Source: a bacterium
Lineage (GTDB): Bacteria; Sysuimicrobiota; Sysuimicrobiia; Sysuimicrobiales; Segetimicrobiaceae
Direction of reading: 5' to 3'
NCBI GenBank assembly: GCA_035691305.1
Contig: DASSJF010000065.1
Coordinates: 1 to 54,927, forward strand
Length of the DNA: 54,927 nt
A model generated the notes under the pieces. That model made no database searches. It was given only the letters and a program-made list of their open reading frames with translations, and had not been told where the DNA came from. The first letter of the stretch is position 1. Each line of letters begins with the position of its first letter. Shown here one piece after another: positions 49,157 through 52,435 of this stretch. Made by a program: the position numbers and the translations under genes.

Positions 49157-49185
49157 TTGAAGTCCCCGCAGGCCCGTGCTACACT
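49157..49185 (+). promoter_or_regulatory. sigma-70-type promoter of the cysteine operon
   Basis: TTGAAG (49157-49162), 17-base spacer, TACACT (49180-49185) preceded by TGC (extended -10). It predicts a transcription start near 49192, about 245 bases before cysO. Confidence 0.7.
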
Positions 49186-49191
49186 CCTCGC

Positions 49192-49437
49192 TGACGCGGA
49201 AATACGGCCACGTCCGGCGGCGTTTAGACGGAATGACATGGGAGAGCGAGAGACGCAGGTCGTGACTCGGATGCTCGGCTGCATCTGTACCAGCGGGAGC
49301 CGTCCGGCGGCGGAGAGATACCGCCGGGGTTAAGCGCGAGCGTCCGAATTCCCGCTTGGGCATTACAAACACCTCGGCCGCGGCGCTTGCGCCGCGGTTT
49401 GTGTTTTTCTCGAATGACTGAGGGAGGTGGATTGCCG
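49192..49437 (+). ncRNA. structured 5' leader of the cysteine operon with terminator (putative attenuator or riboswitch)
   Basis: The predicted leader holds several hairpins: GGATGC/GCATCT around 49270-49288, GGCGG-AGAGATA-CCGCC at about 49312-49328, AAGCG/CGCTT at about 49332-49356, and last a terminator hairpin. Only 30 bases separate the terminator from ATG 49438. Length, order and downstream genes suggest regulation by a sulfur or amino-acid signal. The T-box core UGGNACC and SAM-riboswitch core motifs are not present, so no known class is assigned. Confidence 0.55.
49367..49409 (+). terminator. intrinsic terminator inside the cysO leader
   Basis: Inner stem CCGCGGCG / CGCCGCGG with loop CTTG, outer arms AAACAC / GTGTTT, followed by TTT. 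It is the strongest U-tailed hairpin in the window and lies upstream of, not after, a gene. Confidence 0.8.
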
Positions 49438-49710
49438 ATGGCGCAGGTCTACTTGCCGACGCCGCTGCGCCGGCTGACGAACGGCCGGGCGCGGGTGGCC
49501 GCCGGCGGCGGGACGGTGGCGGAAGCGCTTGCGGGTCTGGAGCGCGAGTTCCCCGGGCTGCGCGAGCAGTTGCGGGACGCCGACGGCGAGGTGCGGGGCT
49601 TCATCAACGTGTTCGTAAACGGGACCGAAATCCGGCACCTCCAGGGTGCCGCGACGCCGTTGCGGGAGAGCGACGAGATCTCGATCGTTCCGGCGATGGC
49701 CGGCGGATAG
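49438..49710 (+). CDS. cysO: CysO-like ubiquitin-fold sulfur carrier protein (ThiS/MoaD family)
   Basis: Sulfur carrier whose C-terminal Gly-Gly is turned into a thiocarboxylate and then supplies sulfur to CysM. Seen: beta-grasp fold starting VYLPTPLRRLTNGRARVAAG, LAGLEREFPGLREQLRDADG, RGFINVFVNGTEIRHLQGAA, and the C-terminus SDEISIVPAMAGG ending in the required GG. It has 90 residues and closely resembles mycobacterial CysO (same FVN/NIYVN region and ILPAVAGG end). ATG 49438 follows GGGAGGTGG. First gene of the operon; three bases to the next gene. Confidence 0.88.
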   Translation: MAQVYLPTPLRRLTNGRARVAAGGGTVAEALAGLEREFPGLREQLRDADGEVRGFINVFVNGTEIRHLQGAATPLRESDEISIVPAMAGG

Positions 49711-49712
49711 GC

Positions 49713-50591
49713 GTGGAGATCTCGCTCCGCCGACGTCCGGCGGCGCCGCAGCCCGCCCGGCCCTCCCCGGCGCCGGCCATGCCTCGGCTCCGGGTGTGGC
49801 CGCTCGACCGGCTGCTCCTGCACGAAGAGGCAGATCCAACCCGGGTCGCGCGCCTCGCGGAGGCCCTGCAGCGCGACGGGGTGCTGCGGAACCCGCCCGT
49901 CGTCGCGCCGATCGGCCGCGGCCGGGCGGTCGTGCTGGACGGCGCGAACCGCGTCACCGCGCTGCGTGCGCTCCGGCTGCCGCACGCGGTGGTTCAGGAG
50001 ATCGCCTACGAAGATCCCGGCGTCCGTTTGTCCGTCTGGCGGCACTACGTGCCGGAGGATGTTCCGGGAACGCTTCGCGCCGCCGCGGCGACGGCCGCTC
50101 CCGATTCCACGGCCCGCGCCGGCGACGCGGCCGAGGCGGAGTCGCGGATCACCGCCGGCGAGGCTCTCGCCGCGGTCGTCGACGCGGAGGGCGGGGTGGT
50201 CCTCCTGCGCACGGGCGGCGATAAGTTCGGTACCGAGTTGCTGCGCCGGCTCGCCGCGCTCTACCGGGACGCACCCGCGGTGCAGCGGGTTGAGCGCGGC
50301 GCCCTCGCCGAGATGGAGGCCGCGTACGGGCGCGGGGCGCTGGTGATGTTCCGGCGGTTCGCGAAGGCGGACATCCTCGCTTTGGCCCGAGACGGCGGCC
50401 GGCTTCCGGCCGGCATCACCCGCCACGTCATTCCCGGACGGGCGCTGCGCCTGAACACACCGCTCGCCTGGTTGTCCGGCCGCGTCGACACCGCGGCGGC
50501 GCAGGCCGCGCTCGATGCACAACTCCGGCAGCGGTGGCAGGCGCACGGCGTGCGCTATTACGCCGAGCCCGCGTTCCTGTTCGACGAATAG
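49713..50591 (+). CDS. ParB/Srx-fold protein, candidate free-serine kinase (SerK/SbnI-like)
   Basis: ParB-N-like domain protein. Relatives of this fold, SbnI and archaeal SerK, phosphorylate free L-serine to O-phosphoserine. Seen: VWPLDRLLLHEEADPTRVAR (HEE at residues 37-39, where SerK/SbnI carry a catalytic Glu), LAEALQRDGVLRNPPVVAPI, and RAVVLDGANRVTALRALRLP. The last motif is DGANR where SbnI/SerK have DGHHR. There is no DNA-binding HTH like that of chromosomal ParB, and no parA. It has 292 residues from GTG 49713. Its place between cysO and an O-phosphoserine-type cysM supports a kinase role; this is inference. Confidence 0.65.
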   Translation: MEISLRRRPAAPQPARPSPAPAMPRLRVWPLDRLLLHEEADPTRVARLAEALQRDGVLRNPPVVAPIGRGRAVVLDGANRVTALRALRLPHAVVQEIAYEDPGVRLSVWRHYVPEDVPGTLRAAAATAAPDSTARAGDAAEAESRITAGEALAAVVDAEGGVVLLRTGGDKFGTELLRRLAALYRDAPAVQRVERGALAEMEAAYGRGALVMFRRFAKADILALARDGGRLPAGITRHVIPGRALRLNTPLAWLSGRVDTAAAQAALDAQLRQRWQAHGVRYYAEPAFLFDE

Positions 50592-50594
50592 ACG

Positions 50595-51530
50595 ATGAGC
50601 GTCGCGCGCGGGATCGAAGCCGGGACGTCGCTCCTCGACCGGATCGGCAACACGCCGCTGCTGCGGCTCGAGCGCGTGACGCGCGGGCTCCCACCGGCGG
50701 TCGACGTGTTCGTGAAGGCGGAGTGGTTCAACCCGGGCGGCTCCATCAAAGACCGCCCTGTGTTGAGAATGCTCTCCGACGCCGAGCGGGACGGCCGTCT
50801 GCGCCCCGGAATCACGATCCTCGACTCCACTTCCGGGAACGCCGGCATCGCGTATGCGATGGTGGGCGCCGTGAAGGGCTATCCGGTGGAACTGGTCATG
50901 CCGGCGAGCGCGAGCGAGGAGCGCAAGCGCATCATCGCCGCCTACGGCGCCCGCATGGTGTTCTCCGACCCCCTGGAGGGCAGCGACGGCGCGATCTTGC
51001 GCGCGCGGGAGATCCACGCCCGCGCGCCGGAGCGGTACTTCAAGCCTGACCAGTACAACAACCCTTCCAACCCGCTCGCGCACTACGACACGACCGCGGT
51101 CGAGATCCTCGAGCAGACCGCGGGGCGTGTCACCCACTTTGTCGCGGGCCTCGGTACGACCGGGACGGTCGTCGGCGCCGGGCGCCGCCTGCACGAGGCG
51201 GATCCCAAGATCCGCGTCGTCGCCGTCGAGCCCGACGCGCCGCTGCACGGCCTGGAGGGGCTCAAGCATATCGCGTCGTCGATCGTACCCGGGATCTACG
51301 ATCCGTCGGTGCACGACGAGAAGATCGCCGTAACGACAGAGGCGGGCTACGCGATGGCGCGCCGGCTCGCCCGAGAGGAAGGCATGCTGGTTGGCGAATC
51401 CGCGGGCGCCGCGGTGGAGGCGGCCCTGCACGTTGCGGCGGGCCTTCGCCGGGGCGTCGTCGTCGTGATCGCCCCCGACGGGGGAGAGCGCTACTTCAGC
51501 ACCGCGCTGTGGCGGGATCTCGTTTCCTAA
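50595..51530 (+). CDS. cysM: cysteine synthase, CysM/O-phosphoserine sulfhydrylase type
   Basis: PLP enzyme replacing the phosphate or acetate of an activated serine with sulfur. Seen: the PLP lysine in FNPGGSIKDRPVLRML (Lys52), the substrate loop DSTSGNAGIAYAM, the phosphate-binding HFVAGLGTTGTVVGAG, VEPDAPLHGLEGLKHIASSI, and the C-terminal LVGESAGAAVEAAL. It has 311 residues. ATG 50595 lies 4 bases after the ParB-like gene and the stop abuts the JAMM gene. The setting with CysO and Mec indicates CysO-thiocarboxylate and O-phosphoserine as substrates, as in Mycobacterium CysM; acetylserine remains possible. Confidence 0.88.
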   Translation: MSVARGIEAGTSLLDRIGNTPLLRLERVTRGLPPAVDVFVKAEWFNPGGSIKDRPVLRMLSDAERDGRLRPGITILDSTSGNAGIAYAMVGAVKGYPVELVMPASASEERKRIIAAYGARMVFSDPLEGSDGAILRAREIHARAPERYFKPDQYNNPSNPLAHYDTTAVEILEQTAGRVTHFVAGLGTTGTVVGAGRRLHEADPKIRVVAVEPDAPLHGLEGLKHIASSIVPGIYDPSVHDEKIAVTTEAGYAMARRLAREEGMLVGESAGAAVEAALHVAAGLRRGVVVVIAPDGGERYFSTALWRDLVS

Positions 51531-52010
51531 GTGAGGATTCATGTTACAATCGTGGGCGGAAGGGACACCGATACGTTGGCGCTCAAGTTGAGTCGGTGGC
51601 AGTTCGAGCAGATGCTCGCCCAGGCGCGTACCGAGGCGCCGAACGAGTGTTGCGGCGTCCTGTTGGGCCTGGACGATACCGTCGAGGAGATCATCCCGGG
51701 GCGGAACATTGATGAAGAACCGCGGCGGCGCTATCTCATGGACCCGCGGGACGAGTTGCGGGCGTTCCGTCTGATGGACGAGCGCGGCTGGGGTCTTGTG
51801 GGGATCTATCACTCGCACCCGGCGACCGAAGCCTACCCCAGCGAAACAGACAGGCGGCGCGCGCACGACGAAGAGAACCGGCCGCTGTTTCCCGGAACAC
51901 GCTACATCATCGTCTCGCTGCGGGAGCCGCACCGTCCCGAGGTTCGGGCCTTCCGCTTCGACGGCGCGGGCGCTTCTGAGGTCGTATCCGAGGATGTGGT
52001 CGTGACGTGA
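51531..52010 (+). CDS. mec: JAMM/MPN metallopeptidase, CysO-cysteine peptidase (Mec type)
   Basis: Zinc peptidase that releases cysteine from the CysO-cysteine adduct. Seen: the JAMM motif GIYHSHPATEAYPSETD with H94, H96 and D107 and Ser104 nearby, Glu39 in NECCGVLLGLDDTVEE, and SRWQFEQMLAQARTEAPNEC at the domain start. It has 159 residues from GTG 51531. That start directly abuts the cysM stop, but the first 19 residues are not conserved; TTG 51576 or 51588 may be the true start. A TGTTACAAT box at 51542-51550 could be an internal promoter. The TGA overlaps the rrf2 GTG. Confidence 0.87.
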   Translation: MRIHVTIVGGRDTDTLALKLSRWQFEQMLAQARTEAPNECCGVLLGLDDTVEEIIPGRNIDEEPRRRYLMDPRDELRAFRLMDERGWGLVGIYHSHPATEAYPSETDRRRAHDEENRPLFPGTRYIIVSLREPHRPEVRAFRFDGAGASEVVSEDVVVT

Positions 52011-52435
52011 AGGTCAGCACCCGGGCGGAATACGGGATTCGTGCGTTGATCGATCTGGCCCAGCACTACGGTGAAGGGCCGGTGCAGAGCCACGAGATCG
52101 CGCGGCGCCAGGGACTCCCCGAGCCCTACCTCAATCAGCTACTCACGACCCTGCGGCGGGCCGGCCTCGTCCAGAGCAAGCGGGGTCCGAGCGGCGGCCA
52201 CGTGCTCGCCCGGACGCCGGAGGGCGTCACGATCGGCGAAGCGTTTGTGGCCCTCGAGGGCAGCGTGGCGCCGTGGCTGTGCGTCGAAGAGGAAGACGCC
52301 CACTGCATCTACGCGCCCGGCTGCGGGCTGCGGCCGGTCTGGCAGGCCGTGAAGGCCGCGACGGAGGACGTCCTGAACCGTACCACTCTGGCGGATGTCA
52401 TCGGGCGGCCGCTTGCGCCGCTGACCAAGGCGTGA
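52007..52435 (+). CDS. Rrf2-family transcriptional regulator, three-Cys (IscR/CymR-like)
   Basis: Winged-helix regulator of the Rrf2 family, whose members sense Fe-S status (IscR) or cysteine supply (CymR with CysK). Seen: [20 protein letters not shown], the [23 protein letters not shown], the wing [20 protein letters not shown] and a Cys triad Cys92, Cys100, Cys106 ([18 protein letters not shown]), near the IscR ligands 92/98/104, so it may hold [2Fe-2S]. It has 142 residues. GTG 52007 overlaps the mec stop and its TGA overlaps the sigma-factor GTG. Placement suggests feedback control of the cysteine operon. Confidence 0.87.

Follow-up and report, generated by a model that had tools for sequence, protein, structure and literature searches.

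The cysO operon and its leader

We analysed a window of 54,927 nucleotides (positions 1–54,927 of contig DASSJF010000065.1, assembly GCA_035691305.1, family Segetimicrobiaceae), in which five genes follow one another on the + strand, as do all features described below. The first is cysO (49438–49710), encoding a ThiS/MoaD-type sulfur carrier with a GG end (Pfam ThiS, 1.6e-14), followed by a gene for an SbnI/SerK-like protein (49713–50591; phmmer to SbnI structures, 1.3e-18), the cysteine synthase gene cysM (50595–51530; Pfam PALP, 1.2e-68; NCBIfam cysKM, 345.6 bits, above the cut-off), a gene for a mec-like JAMM metalloprotease (51531–52010; Pfam Prok-JAB, 9.4e-27), and a gene for an Rrf2-family regulator (52007–52435) whose nearest families, CymR and IscR, both scored below the cut-off. 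SbnI and SerK make O-phosphoserine, and the product of the second gene is probably an L-serine kinase of this kind, with NCBIfam SbnI and SerK matches that fell below the cut-off and no Pfam match. These genes presumably constitute the CysO/O-phosphoserine route, and their annotation suggests that O-phosphoserine and CysO thiocarboxylate are the precursors of cysteine, a single operon encoding all the components. The order cysO-serK/sbnI-cysM-mec-rrf2 was the same in the eight relatives for which the fetched stretch covered the operon, seven of which carry an M23 peptidase gene upstream of it, and the part of the operon present in three further relatives agreed with the same order.

Between the promoter and cysO lies a leader of about 245 nt (49192–49437) with a U-tailed terminator inside it. 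The promoter (49157–49185) consists of a −35 element TTGAAG (49157–49162) and a −10 element TACACT (49180–49185) separated by a 17-nt spacer, from which transcription would start near 49192. It matches eight of 12 consensus bases and thus falls below the reporting limit of the promoter scan, which was set at 9/12; both genus-mates also have a promoter with 17-nt spacing, there with TAGACT as the −10 element. The terminator (49367–49409) has its stem at 49367–49406, a tail running to 49408/49409 with six T in eight positions, and a predicted ΔG of −24.5 kcal/mol, while the Shine-Dalgarno sequence of cysO (GGGAGGUG, 49422–49429) lies outside the hairpin. Only 28 bases separate the terminator from cysO, so the gene would be transcribed by readthrough. 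A previous sequence-only reading of this locus had placed the promoter, the leader and the U-tailed hairpin at these same positions, which the sequence and a terminator scan bore out, and had likewise reasoned that transcription must be let past the hairpin.

Neither energy nor rarity sets the terminator apart. The folding energy of the leader in the window was not better than that of shuffled sequence (z = −0.2), and a terminator-like site is by itself not rare in this DNA, with 0.5 expected in the region. Instead, we take the terminator to be real based on its conservation across the homologous leaders, which came from 12 Candidatus Segetimicrobiaceae genomes and a 13th contig: comparison of the terminator arms by hand recovered the hairpin core CCGCGG...CCGCGG in all 13. 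The U tails of one sub-clade are poor (three to four T in eight), and termination there may be weak or may occur otherwise.

A putative leader peptide with cysteine codons

The main element of the leader is a short upstream open reading frame (uORF; 49271–49333), missed in the sequence-only reading, which encodes the putative leader peptide MLGCICTSGSRPAAERYRRG. In the window it reads ATG CTC GGC TGC ATC TGT ACC AGC ... GGT TAA, and the residues C-I-C-T as well as the stop are kept in 13/13 leaders, including the regulatory codons TGC ATC TGT (Cys-Ile-Cys, 49280–49288). Candidate start codons in the window lie at 49238, 49262 or 49271, placing the beginning of the uORF about 45–80 nt past the inferred transcription start, and use of the in-frame ATG at 49238 would make the leader peptide 31 aa long. 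In genes that neighbour the locus in the relatives, 0.44% of codons specify Cys, versus two to four of the roughly 20 codons of the uORF.

Across the 13 leaders, the sole indel within the aligned frame is 3 nt long and the stop alternates between TAA and TAG at one position, while the length from the stop to the terminator core varies freely (37–46 nt). The second regulatory Cys codon (49286–49288 in the window) is TGT in every leader; TGT is a minor codon nearby, making up 11 of 59 Cys codons. In a codon-substitution test on the same leaders, synonymous changes were not enriched in the uORF frame, and apart from C-I-C-T and the stop the sequences showed no evidence that the peptide is under selection. 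A search of NCBIfam with the leader peptides returned no match. In G003, G004, G006 and G008, unlike in the window, the sequence has a promoter directly 5′ of the uORF, which would therefore be leaderless or nearly so in several relatives.

Alternative pairings around the uORF stop

Directly 3′ of the uORF stop lies region 2 (GCGCGAGCGUC, 49334–49344), the candidate 5′ strand of an antiterminator, whose core GRGCGYC occurs 2–7 nt past the stop in 13/13 leaders. Its partner, region 3 (GGCGCUUGCGC, 49382–49392), overlaps the 5′ arm and loop of the terminator, so that antiterminator and terminator would be mutually exclusive, at least partly. In the window the two regions form 11 bp, and over the 13 leaders 97.4% of cells were paired, versus 35%–54% when the strands were slid against each other. 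Three pairs changed on both sides, a number reached by shuffles in five of 500 cases, with the window itself contributing a G-C to A-U change; given that the 13 leaders are related, these counts amount to few independent events. The duplex of G002 was no better than shuffles. That upstream elements could form an antiterminator had been proposed from the sequence before, and region 2 can fill this role in every leader.

The 3′ half of the uORF folds into a further hairpin, P1 (UCCGGCGG/CCGCCGGG, 49303–49328), with 97.1% of cells paired over the 13 leaders versus 24%–53% when slid, and a G-C to A-U double change in two leaders. We consider a role as an RNA polymerase pause hairpin possible. The P1 loop reads GAGGUG or GGGGUG, resembling the Shine-Dalgarno sequence of cysO, in 10/13 leaders, and differs in the window. 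Around the uORF start, region 1 (UCGGAUGCUCG, 49267–49277) can pair with 49337–49347 in the minimum-energy fold of the free RNA, and such a fold can sequester region 2 when the uORF is untranslated. By folding, this pairing is strong in the genus of the window and weaker or different in other leaders. Sequence comparison thus directly shows the uORF and its Cys codons, where region 2 sits with respect to the stop, and the alternative pairings.

We folded partial transcripts of the 13 leaders in three states: ribosome on the Cys codons, ribosome at the stop codon, and no ribosome. When the ribosome occupied the Cys codons and only half of the terminator had been transcribed, the mean antiterminator probability was 0.65–1.00 in 13/13 leaders; moving the ribosome to the stop codon lowered it to 0.05 or less. 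Once the terminator was complete, equilibrium favored it despite the stalled ribosome in 10/13 leaders, and strongly so in the window; the switch must therefore be kinetic, with the antiterminator forming first and holding. On paper, this predicted need for a kinetic antiterminator is the main weakness of the attenuator model. In the ribosome-free state, sequestration by region 1 was clear in the genus of the window, but not in all leaders.

Distribution of the leader

A DNA search with the leader matched sequences from the same genus and family. CysO itself is more widespread, with matches in 39 of 43 genomes across the class, and the block UGYAUCUGUAC was found 140–160 nt 5′ of cysO in 12/12 genomes of the family, but was absent at the examined cysO loci of other families of the order. 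Similarly, among the genomes compared, the C-I-C-T uORF was found in no other family of Sysuimicrobiota. A GTDB-wide DNA pattern scan gave 20 matches, five of them in the family, one of those new, and we regard the other matches, which lie mostly within other genes, as chance.

Building a covariance model from homologous leaders had been suggested as a check along with the sequence-only reading, and the model of the 13 leaders detected one strong locus per family genome (12/12, 96–126 bits). The best match in 31 other genomes of the phylum scored 24.3 bits, and the best match of all outside the cysO leaders, at 28.6 bits (G001:C38), was rejected, as it lacks the features of a leader and overlaps sequence that looks coding. 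Recovery of the window is not circular: its leader still scored 63.8 bits (E 6e-15) when its genus was withheld from the model.

Some sequences near other cysO genes, or filed elsewhere, deserve separate mention. In a related family, a frame with a Cys-Cys pair ("DCC") 5′ of cysO shares its sequence with a TAGACT −10 box that it overlaps, and we do not consider it a leader peptide. A contig filed under Deltaproteobacteria UBA9160 (DOUU01000280.1) has a Segetimicrobiaceae-type leader at its end; it has probably been misbinned and belongs to Segetimicrobiaceae. At three loci (L044, L045 and L056), all from a single genus in a different family of the order, the stretch between cysO and the gene preceding it contains repetitive, self-complementary GTCT/AGAC words (ggtagacctggtagac...).

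Proposed mechanism and alternative explanations

We propose, with a probability of roughly 0.87, that the leader controls transcription of the cysO operon by attenuation of the classical, ribosome-mediated kind, with charged tRNA-Cys as the signal. We infer that the uORF is translated, that ribosomes stall within it, that tRNA-Cys is the signal, and that the response runs in the following direction. The leader RNA would encode a peptide of about 20 residues with two Cys codons near its start, in C-I-C-T. When Cys-tRNA is plentiful, the ribosome would reach the stop codon and cover region 2, allowing the terminator to form and transcription to end upstream of cysO. Under Cys-tRNA shortage, it would instead stall on the Cys codons and leave region 2 free to pair with the emerging 5′ arm and loop of the terminator, and the resulting antiterminator would let transcription continue into cysO-serK-cysM-mec-rrf2. 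In the absence of any translation of the leader, region 1, which in the genus of the window lies around the uORF start, could hold region 2, and termination would follow.

The sequence-only reading had favored a new sulfur-responsive riboswitch or a protein-dependent attenuator. A response to cysteine or sulfur supply is probably correct, whereas the proposed kind of control is not supported, as conservation in the homologous leaders is confined to the uORF, region 2 and the terminator, with no conserved aptamer-like domain beyond these parts. A riboswitch binding cysteine, O-phosphoserine, SAM or another sulfur compound and controlling the terminator without translation would account for the high conservation of the nucleotides CUGCAUCUGUACG, with almost no synonymous variation, and for the conservation of both P1 and the terminator; the conserved block, however, reads as an open reading frame: it contains Cys codons, its indel preserves the frame, and its stop is conserved. 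Rfam searches at the gathering threshold gave no match for the window or its relatives, and only noise at E values up to 10, so that no Rfam class explains the leader, and we regard a riboswitch as very unlikely. The same searches speak against a T-box, in which uncharged tRNA-Cys would bind the leader RNA. Such an element would share the signal proposed here and the terminator ahead of a cysteine operon, but the UGGNACC motif, whose absence, like that of SAM riboswitch motifs, had been remarked on before, occurs in 0/13 leaders, leaving this reading with a negligible probability. Conserved pairing was indeed found in the homologous leaders, but of the kind expected of a ribosome-mediated attenuator.

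Other explanations retain the uORF or shift control to a protein. Translation could be coupled to transcription through arrest of the ribosome by the nascent C-I-C-T peptide in response to a sulfur compound or redox cue rather than to a lack of Cys-tRNA, a reading that draws on the invariance of these residues and on the constant use of TGT for the second Cys. C-I-C-T lies only a few residues past the nearest start in most versions, though, a chain too short to fill the exit tunnel, and the operon makes the very amino acid that the Cys codons specify; we accordingly give this explanation very little weight. A related idea, which we rate as quite unlikely, is that the C-I-C-T start with its fixed wobble TGT is itself the sensor, through very early nascent-chain or codon-specific arrest. 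If true, this sensor would read cysteine or redox state, and the attenuator would integrate more than Cys-tRNA charging. Finally, the Rrf2/CymR-like regulator of the operon could be in control, with the leader hairpins incidental or protein-bound. The rrf2 gene follows mec in the eight relatives with the operon covered, yet this explanation, which we hold to be extremely unlikely, leaves a Cys-codon uORF, region 2 and a terminator before cysO unaccounted for. The regulator could act additionally, at the promoter, and may possibly provide a second, transcriptional layer of control.

Relation to known attenuators

Attenuators of the trp and his type comprise four regions: a uORF with regulatory codons, a protector, an antiterminator and a terminator. 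The Segetimicrobiaceae leader shares this four-region logic but differs in amino acid and lineage, in that the uORF stop is closely followed by the 5′ strand of the antiterminator, and in carrying a separate hairpin inside the uORF. The closest published case is the uORFC-8-2 motif upstream of cysS in Rhodobacterales, for which ribosome-mediated attenuation has been proposed (PMC8632094). Both have Cys codons in a short uORF and an intrinsic terminator; in uORFC-8-2, however, the tandem Cys codons are usually at positions 14–15, before a tRNA synthetase gene and in another phylum (PMC8632094), whereas the present leader has C-I-C near the uORF start, before a cysteine biosynthesis operon, and falls outside that motif. 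In Actinobacteria, Cys leader peptides have also been described for cys operons of Mycobacterium and Propionibacterium and for cbs of Bifidobacterium (Seliverstov 2005, PMC1262725), which likewise place a Cys-codon uORF before cysteine genes, but with Cys runs near the stop and no conserved terminator hairpin. Mycobacterial polycysteine leaderless ORFs are, in the account that PMC13236596 gives of Canestrari 2020, described as translation attenuation. These, too, have a Cys run near the stop and no intrinsic terminator, and the Segetimicrobiaceae leader differs from them on both counts. Judged by sequence, the promoters of several relatives would likewise have the transcript begin at the uORF or close to it.

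The mechanism is therefore already known; what is new is the leader family and the lineage, and the set of parts conserved in it is unusually complete. Its covariance model can be used for annotation. If the proposed reading is correct, the uncultured phylum Sysuimicrobiota harbors a complete cysteine attenuator in which uORF, antiterminator and terminator are all conserved, suggesting that the CysO/O-phosphoserine route to cysteine is controlled in this lineage by cysteine supply at the level of translation.
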